Part shown: piece by piece, positions 36,130-52,893 of the stretch | Layout: the number at the start of each line of letters is the position of its first letter | How positions within the stretch are numbered: position 1 is the first letter of the stretch | Source of the DNA: Lachnospiraceae bacterium | GTDB lineage: Bacteria; Bacillota; Clostridia; Lachnospirales; Lachnospiraceae | Direction: 5' to 3' | NCBI GenBank assembly: GCA_024696005.1 | Contig: JAILHF010000073.1 | Coordinates: 1 to 63,526 of the forward strand | Length of the DNA stretch: 63,526 nt | Made by a program: the position numbers and the translations under genes | The notes under the pieces: generated by a model | What the model was told of the DNA's origin: nothing | Databases searched by the model: none | What the model saw: the letters and a program-made list of their open reading frames with translations, nothing else

Positions 36130-38217
36130 TCAATGCATTGAAATAAGCTTATCCAGCTCAACCGCAGGGCTGAAAAGATAACCCTGATAAAGAAGTACAC
36201 CTACCTGTTCCAGCGCGTTCTTAAGCTCATCTGATTCAACATATTCCGCAAGCACCTTAAAATCCAGTGATTTTGAAAGATACACGATGGAACTTATTAT
36301 CTCCTTTGTCCTTTCATTTGTAAGGACAGACTTAACAAGACCTCCGTCCAGTTTCACCAGATCAAAAGGATTATGCTGCAGGTACTGCAAAGATGTATGT
36401 CCCATGGAAAAATCATCCAGGGCAAATGTATATCCGAAGTTTCTTATCTCCTGTATCAGCGCACCGGTATCTTCAGATGTGATCAGCTCTGTTTCCTCTG
36501 TGATCTCAATACAGATATTTCCGCGCCTCAGCATATATCGTTTTGCCAGCTCATGTAAGAAAGCAGCATATTTCTTATCATAGAGCGTTGAAACCGTAGC
36601 ATTTACACTGAGTTTGAAATCCTCCCCGAATGTCGCACGCAGCTTCTTTGAATCCTGAACAGCTTTCTCAAGGATATATGTTTCCAACTCATACAGATCA
36701 CCGCTCTCCTTCGCAAGATGTATCACAAGAGGAGGGTAGATACAGCCATAGCGCGTATGTTCCCACCTGAGAAGAGCCTCCGCTCCGATACATTTCCCTG
36801 TGTTGTCATACTGCGGCTGGTATTTGATCATAAGCGGATTCTCCGTATTATCTGAGGAAGCGTCCTCAGTTGATGCGTGTAAAGAGTCCTGCAGATCTGT
36901 CACTAGCAGCTTTGCCAGCCGCCCGGCATTACCCTCGCATTCCGTAAGAGTAACTTCCTCCGTAGTCTCCTCACTCTTTTTCAGGATCCCCACCAGCTCG
37001 TCCATTGCGGTCCCGAATTCATTCAGCGAACGTTTCTCATAAAGACGTACAAACGGTGCATAGCAGGCCGTTGAGATCAGGATATTGATAAGCTGTACGA
37101 TGATACCGCGCACGGAATCAGTGGCAATATAACCGCTTAAGAGCGGCGGTGTGGTCCATATCACATTAGCAGCAACCTCAGGTAAAAACCCGGCTTTTGT
37201 AAGACAATATGCACTTGTATAGCACAATGCCGGAGACAGGATAAACGGGATCACCATAAACGGATTATAGATCACCGGAAAGCCAAAGACCAAAAGCTCC
37301 GATATATTAAACAGACAGGGAACAAAGGCTATGCGGGAAAGTTTTTTTACGGAACTTCGCTTTCCAAAGATCATTATGGAAATGAGAAGTCCGATAATGC
37401 ATCCTGTACCTCCCATAATGACAAATGTATCCATAAAACTCTTGGAAACGATCTCTCCGGGTATAAGCTCCGTGAACATATCCTCAGCAACCTGATTCAG
37501 CACATTGTTTCCATGTATGCCAAACCACCACATAAGGCTGATAAGAACAGAGAACAAAAGCCCGCTCAGATACGACCTGTGCATTTTTAAGAAGACCGAA
37601 TCCACTGCATTCATAAACAGATGCTGAACACTTGTGACATTGAAGGCTAAGGTGATCAGGTAATTTATCACTGCGAAGCAGACTATTGTTGCAAGAAAAG
37701 GCTTGATCACGTAAAGCGCCGCATTAAAGGCAGAGTCCGCCCCGTCAACATAGCTGTGCCTGCCGGACTTAAATACAGACTCAAACTTCAGATAAAGCAT
37801 TGAGCCGATGATACCTGACAGAAGAGCGCTGAAAACTCCCTGACCGCTTAGCAGGGAAAAATCCGGCGCGCCGGTAAAGAAGCCTACAAGAATAAAGAAT
37901 CCTGTCAGACATGCCAGAAGGCTTCCGAGCTTTGATACCGTCTGCCCGCTCTCCGGCGAATTGTCCATATAGCTCAGATTCAGGGAAACTGTCATGTAAA
38001 TGGCAAGGGTTCCGACAGTTGTCACCTGCAGGATCTGAAGAATGCTCCGAAGCGCTCCGCCCAGAAAAGAATCCAGAAAATCCTGATACGCCTGCACGGG
38101 AAATCCGTTTAACAGAACCGTCATACTGCCTATGAACAGCACGGGTAACACCATGGCAAGACCCATTTTTATAGTATTACCTATAAGAGATAACGTTTTA
38201 AAAAAAGATCTTTTCAT
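36130..38217 (-). CDS. PTS EIIC-like membrane domain fused to EAL phosphodiesterase
   Basis: 695 residues. Residues 1-405 are a sugar PTS EIIC-like membrane domain with the GIHGNNV loop (233-239) and ISELLVFGFPVIYNP (305-319). Residues 460-690 are an EAL domain with its catalytic set: E480 of EALLRW, N539, E571, D601-D602 (DDFS), K622, E658 and Q678. It should degrade c-di-GMP, perhaps when the EIIC part binds a sugar; no EIIB or phospho-cysteine domain is present, so transport is doubtful. It overlaps the kinase gene by 4 bases. Confidence 0.9.
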   Translation of the reverse strand: MKRSFFKTLSLIGNTIKMGLAMVLPVLFIGSMTVLLNGFPVQAYQDFLDSFLGGALRSILQILQVTTVGTLAIYMTVSLNLSYMDNSPESGQTVSKLGSLLACLTGFFILVGFFTGAPDFSLLSGQGVFSALLSGIIGSMLYLKFESVFKSGRHSYVDGADSAFNAALYVIKPFLATIVCFAVINYLITLAFNVTSVQHLFMNAVDSVFLKMHRSYLSGLLFSVLISLMWWFGIHGNNVLNQVAEDMFTELIPGEIVSKSFMDTFVIMGGTGCIIGLLISIMIFGKRSSVKKLSRIAFVPCLFNISELLVFGFPVIYNPFMVIPFILSPALCYTSAYCLTKAGFLPEVAANVIWTTPPLLSGYIATDSVRGIIVQLINILISTACYAPFVRLYEKRSLNEFGTAMDELVGILKKSEETTEEVTLTECEGNAGRLAKLLVTDLQDSLHASTEDASSDNTENPLMIKYQPQYDNTGKCIGAEALLRWEHTRYGCIYPPLVIHLAKESGDLYELETYILEKAVQDSKKLRATFGEDFKLSVNATVSTLYDKKYAAFLHELAKRYMLRRGNICIEITEETELITSEDTGALIQEIRNFGYTFALDDFSMGHTSLQYLQHNPFDLVKLDGGLVKSVLTNERTKEIISSIVYLSKSLDFKVLAEYVESDELKNALEQVGVLLYQGYLFSPAVELDKLISMH

Positions 38218-41138
38218 ATAACCTCACCTGCCTTTTCAGCAATTCCCTCCCAATCCAGTTCGGTCAGCATTTTTTCGATATCCGAGATCCTTTCCCTGTC
38301 TGATGCAGGGAGTCTGTATCCGCGAAGATCCTTTAAAATACCGTCCATCAGCTCATAATCATAGCTTCCGGCAATTTCAGCTATCGTCTGGTATGCTTCC
38401 TTAAGCATGCTCCCACTGATCTCGGGCCGGTCTTCATCCGTGCTGTCAAGCCGGGACAGGCCGTCGTTTAATGAACGGTACATCTTCAAAAGTCTGTCAG
38501 TATTATCATCTATAAAAGCCTTGTCTCCGCTTTTTCCTGCGTCCTCAAGTTTAAGTGCAAGCCCGGAAAGTTCGGTCGCTCCTATTATACGGGCCGAGCT
38601 TTTCAGTGCATGAACCTTTATCGTAAAATTTTCAATATCGCCCTGCCTGCAGAGCATTTCAATTTCGTCAGCCTTATTCTTTGCGGTTTGATGAAATACC
38701 GATATAACTGAAAGGTATCCCTCTTCGGATCCGCAGTTTTTCAGGCCTGCCTGCACATCTATTTCTTCTATGCATTCAAGTTTTTTCAAAAAGTCACTGT
38801 TCTCTGTCTCTTGAATAGCCGTCTTTGTACTGCAGTCTTCCGCTTCCGTCGTCTCTTCCGCAGGTTCAACTTTTTCGGCCGGCAGCATATTTTTTATCAT
38901 TCTCTCCAGCTTTTCTCCATCGACGGGCTTGGAGAGATAATCAGTAAATCCGGCTTCAAGATACTTTTCCCTTGCGCCGGATACGGCATTTGCCGTCAAA
39001 GCCACAGAAGGTGCGTCCTTACACATTCCGGAGGCACGTATCGCTTTTAATGTCTCGATCCCGTCCATATCGGGCATCATATGGTCTATAAAAAGAATAT
39101 CATAGGCCGAAGAGGCAGACATCCTGACAGCATCCTTGCCTGACGCGGCGGTATCTATACTGATGAGTGTCCGCTTCAGCAGACTCTTTATGACCGTAAG
39201 GTTCATCTCAGTGTCATCCACAACCAGGATCCTCGCCTTCGGTGCATGAAAAAGCTCTCTGTATTCCCGCATGGCGGAAGATATATCGCGGAATCTCGCT
39301 GTGATCTCTCCGATCTCATCCCATTTCGCGACCTCCTGTTCCACAGCAAACGAAAATTTCGATCCCTTTCCATATTCACTCTCTACCTCAAGCCTGCTTC
39401 CCATCAGTTCGAGGAGCTGTCTTGTGATACTCATGCCAAGCCCCGTTCCCTCTATGGCACGGTTTCTCTTTTCCTCAATGCGTTTATAGGGTGAAAAGAG
39501 GTATTCCATATCTTCCGGCTTCATACCGATACCGGTATCAAGAACCGAGAAGCACAGGCTGATATGAGAATCGTCAGTTTTATCAGCGGAAACAGTAAGG
39601 CTTATCGCACCTTTTTCCGTATATTTCACAGCATTGGTCAGCAGGTTCATCACACACTGCCGGATGCGGATCTCATCCCCGACAAGCAGATGGGGGATCT
39701 GCTGATCCACGCTGACATTCAGTATCAGGGCTTTTTTCTCTGCCCGCTCCCTTATAAGATTTACCAGATCGTTGATCAGAGAGGAAAGATCATACTGCAC
39801 GGGTATGATATCCATTTTTCCCTCTTCCACTTTCGAAAGATCCAGAATATCGTTGATCAGTGAGAGCAGAGTTCTCCCGGCCGACATGATATCTGCCGCA
39901 TATGCACGGATACTTTTTTCATTAGACTCACGAAGGATCATCTCGTCCATCCCGATCACAGCGTTGATGGGAGTTCTTATCTCGTGTGACATATTGGCCA
40001 AAAAACGGCTCTTTGCCTCATTTGCCCTGTCTGCTATATCTCTCTGTTTCTGAACCTCTTCTATATAGTGATAATGTTCCGTATCATCGACAAGAACAAA
40101 CAGCCTTCCATAGCTTTCGCCCTGAAGTTCGAGTTCGTTCTCTTCAGGCGTATAGATACGGTCACCTATATGGATCGTATCATTGTTACGGACGGCCCCG
40201 TCAATTTCCGAGATTATATCGTAAGGAGTACGGGCATGTCCCATGGAAGCCTGTGGTTCTGACAGATCCGGCGTTTTTTTGTGAGATCCTGTTTTTGCAG
40301 GCTCAGTCTTTCCAAAAAAGGTCAGAAATTCCGGGTAAAGTCTTGTGACAGGCTCGTTGTAATACTGTATCCTGCCCTCGTTATCCACTGCGATGATCCC
40401 CTCGGATATCCTGTCTATCACAAAATCCCTTGCGATCTCACTAGTCCCCAAAAGGTCAAATCCAAGGATACCGATCAACAGGAGTATCGTTCCGAAAAGG
40501 GCTCCCGGCATAGTGAGGTCGTAATATCTGGAAATTTCAAATACGCCTGAAAGCTGCACGATCAGAGACAGTATCTGAACACCGAATGACATGATCAGGC
40601 ACAGATACCTTGACTTTGATTTTCTGTTTTTCTCCCGGAGATATTCCCGGATCAGCCAGCGGAGCGCCAGCACAGCAAAGACGCAGTTCATTCCCATCAG
40701 AAGATCATGCATACTTCCGTTGGTGTGATAAAAAACAGGACTTACGGGATACGGTACAAATTCATAAGATCTATAATAAGCTCCATTGCTGCCGATCGTC
40801 AGGATCGTAAGGTAGATCGCGGTATTTATGAGTCCGAAAAGAGCTGTCACCCATTTCGGTATCCGGATCCTGCACATCCGGGCAGCAAATAAAAACAGCA
40901 AAAAACTGATCCATACCCGACCCGCATACGAAAGCTTTAAGGCTGTAAGGTAAGCCTCCTCGGTGGTCGCTTTCATTTCCAGAAGATATCCCAGATTGCT
41001 GATAAAGGTTGAAACACATGCAAGGAAGAGGTAGGAGTGGATCGAATTCTTCCATCCCAAAAACACGATACATATCTCAGCAAACAATGCGCCTACGGTT
41101 ATATACTGTATCGTCAGCAGAATATCATGTGTGCTCAA
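38214..41138 (-). CDS. 7TM hybrid sensor histidine kinase with receiver and HPt domains
   Basis: 974 residues: seven N-terminal membrane helices (about 5-230), a PAS-like region (about 240-360), HisKA with phospho-histidine 385 (MSHEIRTP), HATPase (to about 605), a receiver with D685 (ILFIDHMMPD) and an HPt domain with H843 (HALKSSAR). The complete relay is in one chain, so the phosphate can pass to the receiver protein coded downstream. It starts with TTG at 41138 after GGGAGG. Codon use is AT-richer than that of the flanking genes. Confidence 0.9.
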   Translation of the reverse strand: MSTHDILLTIQYITVGALFAEICIVFLGWKNSIHSYLFLACVSTFISNLGYLLEMKATTEEAYLTALKLSYAGRVWISFLLFLFAARMCRIRIPKWVTALFGLINTAIYLTILTIGSNGAYYRSYEFVPYPVSPVFYHTNGSMHDLLMGMNCVFAVLALRWLIREYLREKNRKSKSRYLCLIMSFGVQILSLIVQLSGVFEISRYYDLTMPGALFGTILLLIGILGFDLLGTSEIARDFVIDRISEGIIAVDNEGRIQYYNEPVTRLYPEFLTFFGKTEPAKTGSHKKTPDLSEPQASMGHARTPYDIISEIDGAVRNNDTIHIGDRIYTPEENELELQGESYGRLFVLVDDTEHYHYIEEVQKQRDIADRANEAKSRFLANMSHEIRTPINAVIGMDEMILRESNEKSIRAYAADIMSAGRTLLSLINDILDLSKVEEGKMDIIPVQYDLSSLINDLVNLIRERAEKKALILNVSVDQQIPHLLVGDEIRIRQCVMNLLTNAVKYTEKGAISLTVSADKTDDSHISLCFSVLDTGIGMKPEDMEYLFSPYKRIEEKRNRAIEGTGLGMSITRQLLELMGSRLEVESEYGKGSKFSFAVEQEVAKWDEIGEITARFRDISSAMREYRELFHAPKARILVVDDTEMNLTVIKSLLKRTLISIDTAASGKDAVRMSASSAYDILFIDHMMPDMDGIETLKAIRASGMCKDAPSVALTANAVSGAREKYLEAGFTDYLSKPVDGEKLERMIKNMLPAEKVEPAEETTEAEDCSTKTAIQETENSDFLKKLECIEEIDVQAGLKNCGSEEGYLSVISVFHQTAKNKADEIEMLCRQGDIENFTIKVHALKSSARIIGATELSGLALKLEDAGKSGDKAFIDDNTDRLLKMYRSLNDGLSRLDSTDEDRPEISGSMLKEAYQTIAEIAGSYDYELMDGILKDLRGYRLPASDRERISDIEKMLTELDWEGIAEKAGEVI

Positions 41139-44760: not shown

Positions 44761-44769
44761 TGGTATAAT
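44761..44769 (+). promoter_or_regulatory. Extended -10 promoter of the helicase pair
   Basis: TGG-TATAAT, without a clear -35, 70 bases before the start of the RecQ-UvrD gene and after the end of the ABC operon. It would give the two helicase genes their own transcript. Confidence 0.5.
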
Positions 44770-44839: not shown

Positions 44840-47800
44840 ATGAAGGACAGTGACTATACAGCGTATCTGAAAAAATTCTTCGGAAAAGACGGCTTTCTGG
44901 AAAATCAGCTGGAAGCGGTGAAGGCAGCGGATGAGGGCAGGAACCTTTTTGTGCAGCTGCCTACCGGCGGCGGCAAGTCGCTGTGTTTTCAGCTGCCCGC
45001 GCTGATCAGCATGGACAAGTGGAACAGCGCCGGGAAGGATCCGAAGAAGAGCCCGCTCACGATCGTGATCTCGCCGCTTCTGGCACTCATGAACGACCAG
45101 GTCGGCAATCTGAATTCCAGGCTTCAACTGCAAATGGAGGAAGACGACATTTCCCCGGAAGAAGAGCAGGAGAGTGATGACCTGCTTTCGTTCTGTGCGG
45201 GCAGCATGAACGGTGGCCAGAGCAGGCCCGAGCGCTGCGACATCCGGCGGGACATCATCGAAGGCAGGGCGGCGATCCTCTATGTATCGCCGGAAAGCCT
45301 GCGTTTCCGTGAGCTTCCTTTTCTCTGCCGCGAGCGCCGCATTGAGAGGATCGTGATCGACGAGGTGCACTGCCTCTTCGAGTGGGGGCTGAGCTTCCGG
45401 CCTGACTACCGCAACATCGCGGATTTCATCCGGACCATCGAAAAGAAAAAAAAGAAAGACATCCCGGTATCCTGTTTTACCGCTACGGTCTCCGCAGAGG
45501 CGAAAGACAGGATCATCGCCTATTTCAAACAGGACAGGGACAGAAGATTTCTGTCGATCGGCTCGGGGGCATCCAGGGACAATCTCTCCTATCATCTGCA
45601 TGAAACGGATCCTCTGGCGGATCCCGACGAAAGCAAGAAGAAGCTTTTGTGGGATCTGATCCGGCCGAACGGGAAAGGCCGCATCCGCGGGATCCTGAAG
45701 AAAGACCGGAACGGAAAGTACCGGATCGCCTCTCCCGTGATCATCTATGCGCTCTATACCAAAACAACCGAAGAGATCGCGAAATTCCTGAACGAAAAGC
45801 TGTGTGAGCTGAACGGGGAAAGAAGCGGCGAGTACGTCCTCTTCTTTCACGGCAAATGCACGCAAAGCCACAAGGACGAGGTGATCGAAAAGTTCTGCGG
45901 AGAGAGTGCCGGCGGGCGTGAGTATTTCGTTGCCGCGAATGCCGCCTTCGGCATGGGGATCGACAAGCCGAACGTGCGCGCCGTGATCAATTACGACATG
46001 CCCGAGTCTTTCGAGAGTTATATCCAGCAGGCCGGGCGCGCCGGCAGGGACAGGAAGCCGGCGGAATGTCATATCCTTCACAGTGTGTCGGATTATAAAA
46101 AGCACGATCTGCTGCTCGAACATTCCGTCATATCCCTTTCGGAGGTGCAGAGGCTGTGGCAGTATCTGCGGGAGCGTGAGCTTGATCGGCCCGAAGCCGA
46201 AAGAGGGAAAAAGCATCTCGGGATCGGCACGGGCATTCTTTGCTCCAATCTCGGTTTCGATCCGATGAAGGTCAACATGATCCTCCGCCTGCTCGAAGAC
46301 AAAGCCTATATCGAAAGGGACCTGAACCGCTTTTACGAAGAAGAGAAAGCGGAAACGACAGCGGAGAAGCCGGCCTGTTATGTAAGGCTGAAGAGGGATT
46401 TCCCGAAGGTGGCGGCCGGAAGGATTCCCTGCTCGGTATATGAAGATACAAAGCTTTCGGAAGATCTGTGCCTGCAGGGCCTGCCCGTTTTCCTGCAGGA
46501 TCTTGTGATCACGAAGATCATGGTTGAAAAGCTGAAGAAGAAATACGGGGAGGGCTGTCTTTCCGGCGTGGAGCTTGCCGAAGCGATGATCGACCGGGAA
46601 CCGGAAGTGATCCTCTGCCGCATCCGCTCGATCGGAAAATATCCGAACAATGTGTCGTGGGAGCAGATAAGGCGCTATGTGATAAAGCCCGATGACTCAC
46701 AGAGAGAGCGCTTCCGAAGTTTTCTGAAGCTTGTCATCGATGCGGATCAGAAGGACACTTCGGACACAAGGATCGGCTACAAGGAAGACTGTCCCGATCT
46801 TCTGAAAGGATATCTGAATAAAGAAGACTTCTCGATCCTCGTTCCGCGTTTTTCACCGGCAGCTTCCTTTAGCCGGATACCCAGATACAGCGAGCAGGAA
46901 CGGGAGGAACTGAACCGCGTGCGGGAGCTTCTCTGCGAGCGGGCCCTGATGTATTCCCTTGAGGAAGGGGGAAGCAGGCTGAAGCTCTTCAGCTGCCGCT
47001 TCCATCCCGATGAGGACATGGAAAACATGCGGTATTCGGGATATCTCTCCACGGATCTTCTGGATCTGGACATGACAAAGGCGGCCGATCTTTACGGGCG
47101 CGTCTGCACGCTTCCGCTCGGAAAGCATGTGCCCTTTGATGCGAAAGAAGACGATCTCGGCCGGAGAGGCAGCCTGGCGCTCTTCGAAGACCTCGGCCTG
47201 CTTACCTGTCTGGAAGAGAAGCCCGGAAAACGGAGGATGCGCATGCTGATCCGTCTCCGGAAGATGCGTGATTTCCGGGAAGAGGATTTCCGGGAGACGG
47301 CAGAACATTATCAATGCTGCAGGGAACGCAAGATCTTTCTGGAACATTTCGCGCAGCTTGTCAGGGATGGCAGCCCGGAGCAGATCCGGGATGCGATCGT
47401 TGCTTACTTTTCTGCCGGGAGCCCGGAGGAAGCCCTGCCTGCGAAGCAGGATGAGGCAGCGCCCGTCCTGCCCGGACCGTTCCGGGAGGAAGATCCGGAA
47501 GAAGAAAAGCTTGCAGTCATCCGGGATGAAAAACACCGCGTGATCAGCGTGGCGGCCGGGCCGGGAAGCGGAAAGACAAGCCTGCTGATCCGGAAGACCG
47601 CGGCCCTTCTGAAAAGCGGAAGATACTCGCCGGACGATTTCGTCATGCTCACCTTTACGAACAAGGCAAACGAAAACCTGAAGGAAAGGCTGGAAACGGA
47701 GGCCGGGATCGATACGGGCGGGATGATCGTGAGTACCTTTCACGCCTATGCCTGCCGCCTGACGGGCAGGCGCTTTCTTCCCGATGAGGGCGGCGATGCG

Positions 47801-49507
47801 ATCCTGTTTGAAGCGGCGGAAAAACTCTCTCCGCAGAACCGGGAATCCGCGGACGAACGCCTGTGGAGAAGAAAGATCCTGATCCTTGATGAGGCGCAGG
47901 ATCTGACCGAAGGAAAGATGAAACTGGTCCGCGCGCTGTTCGAGGCCGGAAACATGGATCAGCTGATCTCGGTAATGGATGACGACCAGCAGATCTTTGC
48001 GTACATGGGCGCGGGATCGAAGTATATAAAGGATTTCGTGAAAAGCTTCCCGAAGCGGGAGACGGCAAAGTATGAGCTGACTTCCGATTTCCGCAGCACG
48101 GAGACGCTGGTCCGCTATGCGGAGCGCTTTCGGAATGCGAATATCCGCGATAAGGAAAGAAGCAGGGCAATGGTCTCCCGAAGAACGGAGCAGGGAAGCG
48201 GAGTGCAGGTCTTCCGCTGCGCGCCCGAAGACTGCAATTCCGTGATCTGCGATGAAGTTTCCGCAGAGGCACGCCGTATCCTGAAGGAAGGCAGAAAGGC
48301 CGTACTGGGCGTGCTTCGCGTGCGTGCGGATGACGTGCGTGAGATCTACACGGAACTGAAGAAGCGCTTCGGCGGCAGAAAGGGTGTTCAGCTGCGCATG
48401 TTTGTGGGCGGGAACCGGGAAGAGGATGATTTCTACCTGGTCTGGCTGGATGAGGCGGATGCGATCCTGCGCCGCTTTGAGAAGGAGGCACAGAAGGCGG
48501 ATGGCTGGGTCAATGATCCGGACCGGCTGATCGCGGATTTTGAAAGAGCTTATCAGAGCAGCATCTATTGCCGGCCCATGCTGCGCTTTGTGCAGGATTA
48601 CCGCAGAAGATATACGGATGGCGGCAGGCTGCATTACGCGGCCCTGTACCGTTACATGCGCACGGTCCTCTTTTCGGAATTTTTCGATGACTATGTAAAC
48701 GAGATCAACAGCGATGAGGGGCTCACGATCTGCGTGTCCACGGTGCACAGCGCGAAAGGACGGGAATTTGACAGCGTCTGTATGTGCTGCCCGCAGGACG
48801 AGCGGCTCGACAATTGCACGGAAGAGGATTACGAAAGGCTGCGCTACGTGGCGATGACAAGGGCACGGGATGGGCTTGTGATCTTTGATCCGGAACCGGA
48901 GCTGCATTATCCGGAACCGGACGGTTCCGAAACAGCGGAAGCTTTTCCGGAATGCAGAAAGAAAAGACGTTCCGGCGGACAAAAGAGCGCGGCGAAGGGA
49001 ATACTCTACGGGCCCGGTGACATCCGTCTGTCCTTTTTCGGAACGAAGGACGAAAAGGATGAAGCGAAAGCCGTGGAAGGCCGGAGAAAGCTTTTCGAAG
49101 CCTTCCAGTTTGAAGGGAAAGACAAAAGCAGCTTCAGCGATACGCCGCCCTGCCTGCAGGCCGGACAGGAACTGGGGATCGACGGGTATTACATCACCGT
49201 GGAAACGGAAGGAGGAAAATACACGTTGGAGCAATTGAAATACTCGGTCGCCGATTCCTGCAGGGCGGAAGTGGGGGTAGTGCGGATCTATCCGGTATAC
49301 AATCCCGTGCACGCAGAGGGTGCCGGCAGCGTGGAAAACTACGCGAAAGGGATCGGCGCGGAATACTGGATGAAAAAACTGGATCCGGAATTCGAAAAAG
49401 CGCCCTTCGAATTTGAAAATGACAGATACGGCAGGCCGGTCATCGGCAGCCTGCGCTATCGGAAAAAACTGATCCTTCCGAGGACCATTCCGAAGGAAGA
49501 AAACTGA
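44840..49507 (+). CDS. RecQ-UvrD fusion helicase
   Basis: 1555 residues with two helicases in one chain. Residues 1-500 are a RecQ-type SF2 helicase: LPTGGGKS (40-47), DEVH (174-177), TAT (214-216), QAGRAGRD (397-404), with a winged-helix-like region near 460-500. Residues 890-1390 are a UvrD/Rep-type SF1A helicase: GPGSGKT (907-913), DEAQ (1017-1020), SDFRST (1082-1087) and VHSAKGREFD. The middle and the last 150 residues match nothing I know. The start at 44840 follows GGAAGAGG. The gene ends 38 bases before the helicase-nuclease gene. It could unwind or remodel invading or stalled DNA. Confidence 0.92.
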   Translation: MKDSDYTAYLKKFFGKDGFLENQLEAVKAADEGRNLFVQLPTGGGKSLCFQLPALISMDKWNSAGKDPKKSPLTIVISPLLALMNDQVGNLNSRLQLQMEEDDISPEEEQESDDLLSFCAGSMNGGQSRPERCDIRRDIIEGRAAILYVSPESLRFRELPFLCRERRIERIVIDEVHCLFEWGLSFRPDYRNIADFIRTIEKKKKKDIPVSCFTATVSAEAKDRIIAYFKQDRDRRFLSIGSGASRDNLSYHLHETDPLADPDESKKKLLWDLIRPNGKGRIRGILKKDRNGKYRIASPVIIYALYTKTTEEIAKFLNEKLCELNGERSGEYVLFFHGKCTQSHKDEVIEKFCGESAGGREYFVAANAAFGMGIDKPNVRAVINYDMPESFESYIQQAGRAGRDRKPAECHILHSVSDYKKHDLLLEHSVISLSEVQRLWQYLRERELDRPEAERGKKHLGIGTGILCSNLGFDPMKVNMILRLLEDKAYIERDLNRFYEEEKAETTAEKPACYVRLKRDFPKVAAGRIPCSVYEDTKLSEDLCLQGLPVFLQDLVITKIMVEKLKKKYGEGCLSGVELAEAMIDREPEVILCRIRSIGKYPNNVSWEQIRRYVIKPDDSQRERFRSFLKLVIDADQKDTSDTRIGYKEDCPDLLKGYLNKEDFSILVPRFSPAASFSRIPRYSEQEREELNRVRELLCERALMYSLEEGGSRLKLFSCRFHPDEDMENMRYSGYLSTDLLDLDMTKAADLYGRVCTLPLGKHVPFDAKEDDLGRRGSLALFEDLGLLTCLEEKPGKRRMRMLIRLRKMRDFREEDFRETAEHYQCCRERKIFLEHFAQLVRDGSPEQIRDAIVAYFSAGSPEEALPAKQDEAAPVLPGPFREEDPEEEKLAVIRDEKHRVISVAAGPGSGKTSLLIRKTAALLKSGRYSPDDFVMLTFTNKANENLKERLETEAGIDTGGMIVSTFHAYACRLTGRRFLPDEGGDAILFEAAEKLSPQNRESADERLWRRKILILDEAQDLTEGKMKLVRALFEAGNMDQLISVMDDDQQIFAYMGAGSKYIKDFVKSFPKRETAKYELTSDFRSTETLVRYAERFRNANIRDKERSRAMVSRRTEQGSGVQVFRCAPEDCNSVICDEVSAEARRILKEGRKAVLGVLRVRADDVREIYTELKKRFGGRKGVQLRMFVGGNREEDDFYLVWLDEADAILRRFEKEAQKADGWVNDPDRLIADFERAYQSSIYCRPMLRFVQDYRRRYTDGGRLHYAALYRYMRTVLFSEFFDDYVNEINSDEGLTICVSTVHSAKGREFDSVCMCCPQDERLDNCTEEDYERLRYVAMTRARDGLVIFDPEPELHYPEPDGSETAEAFPECRKKRRSGGQKSAAKGILYGPGDIRLSFFGTKDEKDEAKAVEGRRKLFEAFQFEGKDKSSFSDTPPCLQAGQELGIDGYYITVETEGGKYTLEQLKYSVADSCRAEVGVVRIYPVYNPVHAEGAGSVENYAKGIGAEYWMKKLDPEFEKAPFEFENDRYGRPVIGSLRYRKKLILPRTIPKEEN

Positions 49508-49545
49508 ACCGGCATTATCATGAAACAGGAAAGAGAGGACATGGC

Positions 49546-52500
49546 ATGTACAGATTGGTTTGGGATTACTACCACAGCCTGGCGGAACGCTGCGGAAGGG
49601 ACGCGGAAGGAAACGAGCTTCCGTTTTCCCTGATCCCCTTCTATGCGGGGAAGGAAGCGGAAGGCGGGATCGAGCAGAATCTGAACCGGCTCGCAAAAGC
49701 GTTTCTCGGAAAAGAGGAAGAGCTGGAAACGGTTCACCGCGCGGGAGAGGCCGAGCTCGAAGACTTGAAGCGCCGCGTCAGGGAGATCTGCAGCGCGCAG
49801 ACAAACGATTCCCAGATCGATGCGGTCTCGCAGGCGATCCTGAATGATCTGACGATCATACAGGGGCCTCCGGGAACCGGCAAAACGGAAACGATCAAAA
49901 ACATCGTGCTCTGCATAAGGCGTCTTCGCCCGGCGGCAAAGATCGCCGTCATTTCCGCGAACCGGGAAGCGCTGTCGAATGCGGAGGATGCGGTGCGGGA
50001 GGATCCGGATCTGAGCCGGCGTGCCGCCCGTCTCGGAAACCAAAGCATGCGCAAGGAGTTCTTCGAGAAGCTGCGTGCCGAAGATCCGCAGCTTCATCGG
50101 GAAATGTCGCATTTCTTTACCAGGGAAAACCGCTGGGTGTTTCCGGCTTCCCTGCTGGAACATTATCCGATCATCTTCAGCACGATCCATTCTCTCAGAA
50201 ACAGCGTGAAAGCAGACGAATACGATTACGTGCTCGTGGATGAATGCTCGCAGGTCTCCTGCATGCTGGGAATGCTTGCGATCTCGCAGGCCTCGCATCT
50301 GATCCTTCTGGGTGATGACGAGCAGCTTCCGCCGATCCATAAAGATACGGAAGACCTCTGCCCGGAGATCATCCGAAACGACGCACCGTGGTATTTGGAC
50401 GAGAAGGACAACAGTTTCATGAAAGCCGCGGCGAAGTCCTTTGACGGGCGCTGCGGAAACATATTGCTGAACGAACATTACCGCTGTCATCCGGCGATCA
50501 TCGGTTTCTGCAACCGGGAGATCTACGGCGGCCAGCTGCGCGTGATGACGCACGAGGACAACAGGCTGCCGATCCGGATCCGCTGGTATGAGGGCGATTA
50601 CTGGGAGCAGACCGAAGACGCGCAGACCGAAACAAAACGGAACTGCAATCTGAAGCAGATCGAGATCTTCCTTAAGGATGAACTGCCCGGGGTGATCGAA
50701 AAACGCAGGGAGGATCCCGGCTACAGCATCTGCGTGCTCTCACCCTACCGCTGCGAGCTGGAGGTTTTGCACGACCGCCTGGAAGAGGTCCTTGCCGCGG
50801 ACGATCCCGTGGAGAACACGCTGGAAGACATCCCGGAGGACGTGAACGACATCTCGCAGCTGACGATCCACAAGGCGCAGGGCCGGGGATACGACAGGGT
50901 CTATATCCTGCCGGTCCAGGATGCCGGTTTCTCGCCCTGGTCGCAGAAGCGCGAGCTGATCAACGTGGCGATCTCCAGGGCCAAAAAGGAACTCTGTGTG
51001 ATCACCTCATCCGTGTGGATGCCGCGCGAACTGCAGCGCGAGAGCGGGGTGTACGTGAACCCGAGGGAGAACGGGAGGAACACCTATCTGCGCAGTTTCC
51101 TTGCCTACGTCCGGGAAGAGCTGGAACACAGGGATCCCGGGACCGACTACGGCTTTCTTCGGAGCAGCCTCCGTTCGATCTTTGACAAGGTCCCGAAATA
51201 CAGAAGGATGAAGCATTGCGCGGATGAGCTGCGCATTCCCAAGATCAACCGCAGCCCCTCCGCACCGGAGCTGTGCCTGATCGACGAACTGGATCATTGT
51301 GACGAAATTCGCAATGGCTACCGCTATTACCGTGAAGTACCCTTAAGCCTGATCGAAGGGATCGATCAGAGGGATGAAGAGATCCGCCGCTATATCGAAA
51401 ACGGCTCGCGGGCGGATTTTGTGATCGCAAGGGAGGACAGGATCTGTGCCATCATCGAGGTGGACGGGGCGTATCACCGTTCCGATCCGGAAACGATGGA
51501 GAATGATGCCCTGAAGGACAGGGCGATCCGTTCCCTGGGAGAGGATTTTTACCGCGAGCGCTTTCTGCGCCTCACGACCGACGGAAGCTCGGAAAACGAG
51601 ATGGAGCGGATCCTTTCTGTTCTGAACAGTGATGCGCCTACGGTGCGCCTTCTTGCGGAGGAAGGGGAGCTGACGGAGGAGCAGAACGAGAAGGACGACC
51701 TGATCGATGTGCTGGACCGGGTGATGGATGAGCAGATCGAAGGGATACGGCAGATCATGTCACGGCCCGGTTCGCCGGAATACCGGGAAGCATTCCGCGT
51801 CTGGAGCACGATACGTTACGACAGGGAGCATGAGGACGGCGGAAGGGGCCCGGGGGCGGAGGATTATTCGGATCCGCTGTTCGTCTCACGCTATCTGATG
51901 AAATATGCCTATGTTTACGCTTTTGAGTATTGGGTGATGTATGATGCCCTGCTGCATGATTTCCGCGGGGCAGAAGGAAACGGGGAGCTCACGTATTTCG
52001 GCTCGGCCTGCTTTGGCTGCGGGAGCTGCCTGGATGCCTGGTCCCTGGCCTATGCGGCCGCGAAGATACGCGCGGAAGAAGAAAACGTGCTTCCGGAAAA
52101 CCTGGAGCTGCTCTATTACGGCTACGACCGCGCCCGCTGGGGCTTCCGCTTTGACGGCATCCGCGGACTGACGCGCATGGCGGTCAATCCTTTCGATGCA
52201 AACGGCTTGGCGCCGGGCATTGAGGAAGTGTTTGCGGATACGGATTACGAGGACAGCAAATGGTCGCGATACAATGTGCTGATGTTCGGAAAGATCCTGA
52301 ACGAGCTGCCGGGCCGGGTCCTGGATGAAGCGATCGAAAACATCCGGATCGCTGCAGAAAACGGGCGTTTTCCGAGGAAGGAGATCTACATCTGCATCTC
52401 GCATAACCGTTCGGGCGGCGAGAACAACGAAGAACTGCAGGAGATCGCGTCCCGGGTGGTCGGTGCGATCAACTTCGACGGCTCCTTCGAAGTAAACGGC

Positions 52501-52794
52501 CGTGTGATCGAAAGCTCGCCCCTGTATCAAAACGGGAAGATCCGCTGCATGAACGAAGCGGGAGACGAGCTGCACAGGATCTACGCCTTTGCGGACGGCA
52601 GGCAGTATATCTGGAGTCTGAACCCCGACTTTTCGGGCCTTCGGGAGATACAGACCCTGCAGAACGATGATGAGTTTGCGGACGAATTCACCGCGGGCCT
52701 GCGGCAGGCCGACCCCCGCGCGACGTTCCGCCTCAGCACCCTGACGACGGCGTATATTTCCGTTCAGATCATCAAGCTGACAAAAAGAGATTAA
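49546..52794 (+). CDS. Upf1-like helicase / DUF2726-like nuclease / methyltransferase-like fusion
   Basis: 1082 residues. Residues 85-490 are an SF1B Upf1/Dna2-like helicase: GPPGTGKT (107-114), DECS (232-235), GDDEQLPP (256-263), NEHYRCHP (309-316), HKAQGRGYD (442-450) and NVAISRAKK (473-481). Residues 570-690 look like a PD-(D/E)xK nuclease of the DUF2726 type: D624 of ADFVI, E638-V-D-G-AYH and K657. Residues 780-960 resemble a class I SAM methyltransferase: FGCGSCLDAW (823-832), YYGYDRARWG (857-866), YNVLMFGKILNEL (909-921). GAAAGAGAGG precedes the start. It is very likely in an operon with the RecQ-UvrD gene. Confidence 0.9.
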   Translation: MYRLVWDYYHSLAERCGRDAEGNELPFSLIPFYAGKEAEGGIEQNLNRLAKAFLGKEEELETVHRAGEAELEDLKRRVREICSAQTNDSQIDAVSQAILNDLTIIQGPPGTGKTETIKNIVLCIRRLRPAAKIAVISANREALSNAEDAVREDPDLSRRAARLGNQSMRKEFFEKLRAEDPQLHREMSHFFTRENRWVFPASLLEHYPIIFSTIHSLRNSVKADEYDYVLVDECSQVSCMLGMLAISQASHLILLGDDEQLPPIHKDTEDLCPEIIRNDAPWYLDEKDNSFMKAAAKSFDGRCGNILLNEHYRCHPAIIGFCNREIYGGQLRVMTHEDNRLPIRIRWYEGDYWEQTEDAQTETKRNCNLKQIEIFLKDELPGVIEKRREDPGYSICVLSPYRCELEVLHDRLEEVLAADDPVENTLEDIPEDVNDISQLTIHKAQGRGYDRVYILPVQDAGFSPWSQKRELINVAISRAKKELCVITSSVWMPRELQRESGVYVNPRENGRNTYLRSFLAYVREELEHRDPGTDYGFLRSSLRSIFDKVPKYRRMKHCADELRIPKINRSPSAPELCLIDELDHCDEIRNGYRYYREVPLSLIEGIDQRDEEIRRYIENGSRADFVIAREDRICAIIEVDGAYHRSDPETMENDALKDRAIRSLGEDFYRERFLRLTTDGSSENEMERILSVLNSDAPTVRLLAEEGELTEEQNEKDDLIDVLDRVMDEQIEGIRQIMSRPGSPEYREAFRVWSTIRYDREHEDGGRGPGAEDYSDPLFVSRYLMKYAYVYAFEYWVMYDALLHDFRGAEGNGELTYFGSACFGCGSCLDAWSLAYAAAKIRAEEENVLPENLELLYYGYDRARWGFRFDGIRGLTRMAVNPFDANGLAPGIEEVFADTDYEDSKWSRYNVLMFGKILNELPGRVLDEAIENIRIAAENGRFPRKEIYICISHNRSGGENNEELQEIASRVVGAINFDGSFEVNGRVIESSPLYQNGKIRCMNEAGDELHRIYAFADGRQYIWSLNPDFSGLREIQTLQNDDEFADEFTAGLRQADPRATFRLSTLTTAYISVQIIKLTKRD

Positions 52795-52800
52795 AAAGCA

Positions 52801-52857
52801 TTGACATCCGTCATCAAGTGATGTATTCTTTGTATTAAGGTTAGTAATACAAAGAAT
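52801..52857 (+). promoter_or_regulatory. Promoter with perfect 13-7-13 GntR operator
   Basis: TTGACA (52801-52806), 17 bases, TATTCT (52824-52829). ATTCTTTGTATTA (52825-52837) and its exact complement (52845-52857) around 7 bases cover the -10 and the transcription start. The first gene of the unit is a YtrA-type GntR, so autorepression is likely. Confidence 0.85.
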
Positions 52858-52893
52858 GCATCAGTTTTGTTTGTCGGAAAGGAGAAAGCTTGC

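Follow-up and report, generated by a model that had tools for sequence, protein, structure and literature searches.

Helicases of the RecQ and UvrD families move 3'-5' and Upf1-like helicases of superfamily 1B (SF1B) 5'-3', and both BLM/Sgs1-DNA2 and RecBCD combine a 3'-5' helicase, a 5'-3' helicase and a PD-(D/E)XK nuclease. A partial resemblance between BLM-DNA2 and RecBCD is discussed in PMC9042962. The nearest printed precedent that we found are giant proteins that combine HEPN, SF1 helicase and Vsr domains, occur without modification genes and have been predicted to target invading DNA (PMC3710099). Here we analyzed two genes in a stretch of 63,526 nucleotides (hereafter the window) from a Lachnospiraceae bacterium (assembly GCA_024696005.1, contig JAILHF010000073.1). 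Gene 1 encodes a RecQ-UvrD double helicase and gene 2 a helicase-nuclease with an additional C-terminal domain (CTD). We propose, tentatively and somewhat short of an even chance, that they form an accessory operon whose products attack aberrant or invading DNA as a helicase-nuclease machine.

Both open reading frames were recovered as two adjacent giant genes, as the original prediction had it, on the same strand and separated by 38 bases (Table 1). AGG-type purine-rich sites precede the starts of both genes. The claim that the pair has its own promoter held in part: an extended -10 element (TGGTATAAT) ends 70 bases before the start of gene 1, while the consensus scan listed no promoter there. 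Gene 1 carries the predicted RecQ core (superfamily 2, SF2; Pfam DEAD 1.1e-26, Helicase_C 1.1e-18) followed in the same chain by the predicted SF1A UvrD core (UvrD-helicase 1.5e-28, UvrD_C 4.5e-12), with the helicase motifs intact, and is 25-33% identical to five aligned RecQ-UvrD relatives, including the longer protein of locus L062. Gene 2 likewise contains the predicted Upf1-like helicase (AAA_11 7.7e-21, AAA_12 1.9e-14). Its nuclease region, described beforehand as DUF2726-like, scored below the Pfam cut-off (MTES_1575 3.5e-4, DUF2726 9.5e-4), yet it follows the DUF2726-type pattern D...ExD...H...D..K, with D624, E638, D640, H644, D654 and K657 identical in all 11 aligned sequences (gene 2 and 10 relatives). 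Because these six residues are kept throughout the alignment, we take the nuclease to be active. Among phage records, gene 2 found partial matches in five, covering at most 28% of the query.

Table 1. Features of the gene pair and related regions (aa, amino acids; positions refer to the window unless a locus is named)
Feature	Position	Strand	Basis or remark
Gene 1: RecQ-UvrD double helicase, 1555 aa	44840..49507	+	ATG start; AGGAAGAGG precedes ATG; Pfam
Gene 1 SF2 RecQ helicase core, aa 9-432	44864..46135	+	TIGR01389 1.5e-63 (below cut-off); Pfam DEAD, Helicase_C
Gene 1 SF1A UvrD helicase core, aa 898-1348	47531..48883	+	Pfam UvrD-helicase, UvrD_C; motifs in translation
Gene 2: helicase-nuclease-CTD protein, 1082 aa	49546..52794	+	Open reading frame; Pfam
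Gene 2 Upf1-like SF1B helicase, aa 85-490	49798..51015	+	AAA_11, AAA_12; motifs aligned with 10 relatives
Gene 2 DUF2726-type PD-(D/E)XK nuclease, aa 600-690	51343..51615	+	Pfam (sub-threshold); alignment
Gene 2 CTD, aa 716-1082, class I methyltransferase fold (model)	51691..52791	+	Not in Pfam
CTD motifs			Motif I GCGSC, aa 824-828; acidic D861; NELP, aa 919-922
Extended -10 promoter element TGGTATAAT	44761..44769	+	Read from sequence; not in consensus scan
X1/X2 regions	L061:12024-14668, L062:6690-9112, L078:12922-13590		Adjoin different defence-like cargo; similarity local only

The most interesting part of the gene pair is the CTD, an unnamed methyltransferase-fold family. It had been described as methyltransferase-like: the structure model, of moderate confidence (predicted local distance difference test score, pLDDT, 68.8; predicted template modelling score, pTM, 0.75), has a class I methyltransferase fold, while Pfam gave no match. 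As modeled, the domain has the Rossmann-type fold of a class I S-adenosylmethionine (SAM) methyltransferase, in which strand 1 leads into the glycine-rich motif I and strand 2 is followed by an acidic residue. DNA methylases carry NPPY, SPPY or DPPY motifs when they modify amino groups, or PCQ when they modify C5. We rejected the CTD as an enzyme of either kind, since all of these motifs are absent and the aligned motif-IV region reads NELP, with NEL, SEF, GEF and SDM in relatives. Without DNA-methylase motifs in the CTD, a classical restriction-modification reading is unlikely. The fold matches were tied between Rsm22/METTL17 and GRAS proteins, to which the CTD shows no significant sequence similarity. 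Profile searches of PDB sequences and Pfam gave no match, and sequence searches of both yielded weak, chance-like matches only. For yeast Rsm22, SAM-dependent RNA methyltransferase activity is reported in the accessible part of PMC8171064.

Relatives of the CTD were found at 13 loci outside the window, and in 10 of them (L079, L081-L087, L071 and L140) a gene for a DUF1848 protein, radical-SAM-like by its motif, lies directly 3' of the methyltransferase-fold gene. Some of these loci are near-duplicates (L083, L084 and L087 are 92-99% identical; L081 and L085 87% over 161 amino acids), and after collapsing them the DUF1848 neighbor was present in seven of 10 groups. The structure model of DUF1848 is weak (pLDDT 58.5); its matches to radical SAM folds span approximately residues 1-220, with scores for other barrel folds not much lower. 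A literature search of open papers in one library found no mention of DUF1848. Defence genes lie near the CTD relative in five of the 13 loci, where the contexts are PsyrTA (about 4.7 kb away, in genome G022), a NACHT gene with Vsr, a type II restriction endonuclease and Dcm, PDC-S02 with the AAA protease AAA-M41, type III-B CRISPR, and a CRISPR array with a TM1812 gene. At L140, the methyltransferase-fold and DUF1848 genes have a CRISPR-type repeat array on one side and type III-B genes on the other. Because its relatives at other loci have DUF1848 enzymes, NACHT ATPases or AAA proteases as neighbors, the CTD looks like a portable module that has been fused to a helicase-nuclease in gene 2. 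In our best reading, the CTD family is defence-associated and was acquired by gene 2. Three scans of viral contigs returned no relative of the CTD (63 pattern matches without a relative, no match, and 27 pattern matches without a relative), and a search of plasmids gave no match.

Additionally, L080 holds a DUF1848-like fragment of 90 amino acids (L080:18799-19071; 58% identity over 60 amino acids) 7.6 kb downstream of its CTD gene, as though the usual partner gene had degenerated at this locus. A single DUF1848 gene is present in the window's own genome, on a different contig (L141:5658-6632), and gene 2 is the only CTD match in that genome. The product of this DUF1848 gene could work in trans with the gene-2 CTD.

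The two proteins are accessory: of 34 further genomes of the genus, two (G027 and G023) have a long frame of the RecQ-UvrD type, and one (G022) has a relative of the CTD (single-protein search). A housekeeping role, which the original prediction had offered as its alternative, is unlikely for the gene pair. In 391 genomes of the class (own genome included), gene 2 matched 22 at E 1e-12 (21 of the 390 others) and the C-terminal half of gene 1 matched 23 at E 1e-15; these searches scored at most two candidates per genome, such that weak or second copies may be missed. Frames of at least 1500 amino acids with a gene-1 match were present in 18 of the 390 other genomes (18 of the 22 others listed), their identity as RecQ-UvrD fusions having been checked only for the loci examined individually. 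Both kinds of protein, RecQ-UvrD fusions and helicase-nucleases, occur sporadically and stood alone at the loci examined.

A defence interpretation is plausible for both proteins. Neighbors of the RecQ-UvrD gene on plasmids include a type I restriction-modification locus with HNH, type I-D CRISPR genes 4-5 kb away, HipA and a VapC pair, and one plasmid-borne helicase-nuclease relative (L067) sits after SNF2, N-6 DNA methylase and TIR genes; the other two helicase-nuclease plasmid loci have no defence neighbor by annotation. RecQ-UvrD genes encoding 1463-1763 amino acids were also seen on contigs classed as viral (L142-L153 except L146, and L189), where they may be phage genes or belong to host flanks. 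The predicted resemblance to anti-phage systems is supported in part, with several relatives in defence loci and no visible defence island in the window. We infer that the operon is probably anti-invader.

If so, the two proteins would come together on DNA ends, gaps or forks, where motors of opposite polarity (RecQ and UvrD 3'-5', the SF1B helicase 5'-3') would unwind opposite strands, by analogy with BLM/Sgs1-DNA2 or RecB-RecD. The strand exposed in this way would then be cut by the nuclease of gene 2. The CTD, if it binds SAM, may modify nucleic acid, either for self-marking or on RNA, or may switch the nuclease. In a more far-reaching version, in which our doubt clearly exceeds our confidence, the CTD family would be a portable immunity module, paired with DUF1848 and placed beside NACHT ATPases, AAA proteases, PsyrTA or type III CRISPR; in gene 2 it would have been joined to a helicase-nuclease that partners RecQ-UvrD as a BLM-DNA2-like antiviral machine. 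Methyltransferase-fold and radical-SAM chemistry would then join the bacterial immunity repertoire, and bacteria would possess a counterpart of the RecQ-DNA2 end-processing machine that is used for defence. The CTD-DUF1848 pair is testable and, being compact and recurrent, more tractable than the two giant proteins.

Several observations weigh against a joint anti-invader operon. The class-wide lists for gene 1 and gene 2 overlap only in the window's own genome, none of the 390 others being on both. No gene-2-like stretch (tblastn, E 1e-6) was detected in any of the 21 RecQ-UvrD loci whose downstream sequence spans 3 kb or more; these remained from 41 loci besides the window with RecQ-like and UvrD-like matches, 23 of them wide-flanked, after dropping L144 and L148 (less than 3 kb downstream), with L111-L129 (flanks of about 1.5 kb) left out of the count. 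Several RecQ-UvrD loci lack any defence neighbor, and eight of the 13 CTD loci have no recognized defence gene nearby. Around the pair itself, no recognized defence system or integrase was found (Pfam on 17 neighbors, PADLOC on 10). A recent transfer of the operon is not visible by codon usage or composition: the codon-usage distance to the window is 3.1 and 4.1 for the two genes and 3.3-9.3 for other long frames, some of them mechanical. Further, SAM binding by the CTD rests on a model of moderate confidence, and the helicase polarities are assigned by family.

The original prediction had presented the genes as a two-gene module, to be abandoned if the homologs were rarely neighbors; with no shared genome among 390 and no gene-2 relative in the 21 RecQ-UvrD loci, we rejected a conserved two-gene system. 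The lack of a shared genome also speaks for the explanation that gene 1 and gene 2 are unrelated single-gene defence or maintenance proteins, chance neighbors that each act alone. Gene-2-like genes were also missing from all eight RecQ-UvrD plasmid neighborhoods (drawn from 252 records with a gene-1 match), and annotated RecQ from the three plasmids with helicase-nuclease relatives (from 82 records with a gene-2 match). However, the shared strand, the 38-base gap, the single promoter-like element ahead of gene 1 and the complementary helicase polarities, as judged by family, speak for joint action, and we consider chance neighbors possible though rather unlikely.

Accessory DNA repair, in which RecBCD-like or BLM-DNA2-like end processing substitutes for a missing RecQ, appears improbable to us. 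In its favor are the BLM-DNA2-like domain set, the native-looking codon use and the own genome, where no RecQ exceeded the TIGR01389 cut-off (a strict one, passed by only seven of 14 control genomes) and the best RecQ match was gene 1. Gene 1 was itself rejected as the housekeeping RecQ, at 215.1 bits against the cut-off of 640.2. The absence from most of the 34 other genomes of the genus argues against core repair, relatives occur on plasmids, some of them near CRISPR and restriction-modification genes, and those of the CTD are often defence-linked. That the CTD is instead an effector, an RNA- or ribosome-directed methyltransferase released upon an encounter with invading DNA to arrest translation, seems very unlikely. 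Of the explanations considered, we retain the anti-invader operon as our tentative reading.

Outside the two genes, regulators were found on either side, in keeping with the prediction, one of GntR type upstream by Pfam and another downstream by reading of the sequence. A 19-pair inverted repeat (52819-52863) overlaps the -10 of a TTGACA-17-TATTCT promoter ahead of the downstream GntR-like operon and looks like its operator. The neighbor scans covered the window from about 32.9 kb upwards. By Pfam, nine of the 17 neighbors are transporters, regulators, signaling or membrane proteins, and eight had no match. By PADLOC, two ATP-binding cassette (ABC) transporter ATPases gave partial ATPase matches (best mad3, 9.1e-26), a histidine kinase matched PDC-M43B weakly (4.8e-6), and seven of the 10 gave none. 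Rfam and tRNA scans of the window yielded no match. Genes for a histidine kinase and a phosphotransferase system EIIC-EAL fusion protein (36130-41138) have a G+C content of 0.45-0.47, against 0.54 for the window.

L062, which has the closest RecQ-UvrD protein in the genus (40% over RecQ), and L080, which has the closest full-length CTD relative, share a type of restriction-modification locus (Dcm 83%, Vsr 70% and type II restriction endonuclease 63% identical), which links the RecQ-UvrD and CTD families. The N-terminal 300 or so amino acids of the L062 protein are 42% identical to the N-terminus of a UvrD-type protein in L080, and a TraG-like gene is common to L062 and L078 (36% over 478 amino acids). 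An unassigned pair of genes, X1/X2, was observed ahead of the cargo in G022 and G027 (X1 35% over 91, X2 34% over 47 amino acids); G769 has an X2-like gene (35-40% over 34-47 amino acids) and an X1 candidate without a match. At most, X1/X2 and the shared genes hint at one cargo site of integrative elements, which X1/X2 may mark.

In line with the claim that the make-up is unlike any described system, no PADLOC system fits gene 1 and gene 2. Among the 25 top-scoring families out of 93 and out of 30, the RecQ part matched DpdF and PsyrT best, the UvrD part GajB and RTasHel, and the gene-2 helicase MkoA; every one of these models spans the shared helicase region only. No NCBIfam match exceeded its cut-off among the families listed (for gene 1, the top 25 out of 43), and seven relatives (three helicase-nucleases and four RecQ-UvrD proteins) gave the same picture. 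A phrase search found no mention of a RecQ-UvrD fusion in the open papers of the one library searched, nor is one described in the accessible parts of PMC5512222, PMC11291487, PMC10853773 and PMC12839542; among the SF1/SF2 helicase defence proteins listed in a Hachiman paper (PMC12278908), none is such a fusion.

The closest single proteins are solitary. RecQ-UvrD fusions annotated as "RecQ family ATP-dependent DNA helicase" (about 1460-1790 amino acids) have RecQ followed by UvrD, like gene 1, and occur sporadically on plasmids and chromosomes, where no gene-2-like neighbor was found; some have an extra N-terminal domain absent from gene 1, which reads as exonuclease-like in L063 and L064. 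"AAA domain-containing" helicase-nucleases (about 860-930 amino acids), for example on plasmids of E. coli, Parabacteroides and Bacteroides share the helicase motifs and nuclease residues of gene 2, but are longer overall before the nuclease and lack the C-terminal methyltransferase-fold domain.

Among named systems, Mokosh (MkoA, MkoC) is the best PADLOC match of gene 2, at 118.8 bits and confined to the helicase. PMC10952713 lists a PLD-like domain for Mokosh, whereas the helicase of gene 2 is combined with a PD-(D/E)XK nuclease and a methyltransferase fold; no PLD domain was found in either protein (Pfam, E 0.1), and membership was rejected. PsyrTA (RqlHI) shares a RecQ-type helicase with gene 1, at a PsyrT score of 170.8 against 760.8 for the G022 protein. 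As far as the accessible text of PMC4670107 goes, the DprA-like PsyrA adjoins PsyrT and the RecQ protein has a phosphoribosyltransferase domain; gene 1 has none, and no DprA-like match was found among the neighbors scanned with Pfam and PADLOC, so PsyrTA was rejected as well. The Dpd 7-deazaguanine system was rejected at a DpdF score of 174.9 bits against an NCBIfam cut-off of 550. Hachiman (PMC12278908) and Gabija (PMC10952713) follow a helicase-plus-nuclease logic like that of the window pair, but, from the portions of these papers at hand, with different helicase and nuclease families. Gabija requires the OLD-type nuclease GajA (ATPase and TOPRIM) beside GajB, which matches the UvrD part only, and it was rejected; the only nearby GajA match is a partial ATPase match of 44 residues (5.3e-6) in an ABC transporter ATPase. 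With BLM/Sgs1-DNA2 and RecBCD, finally, the gene pair shares an analogy of parts, to which the pair adds a UvrD motor and a methyltransferase fold.

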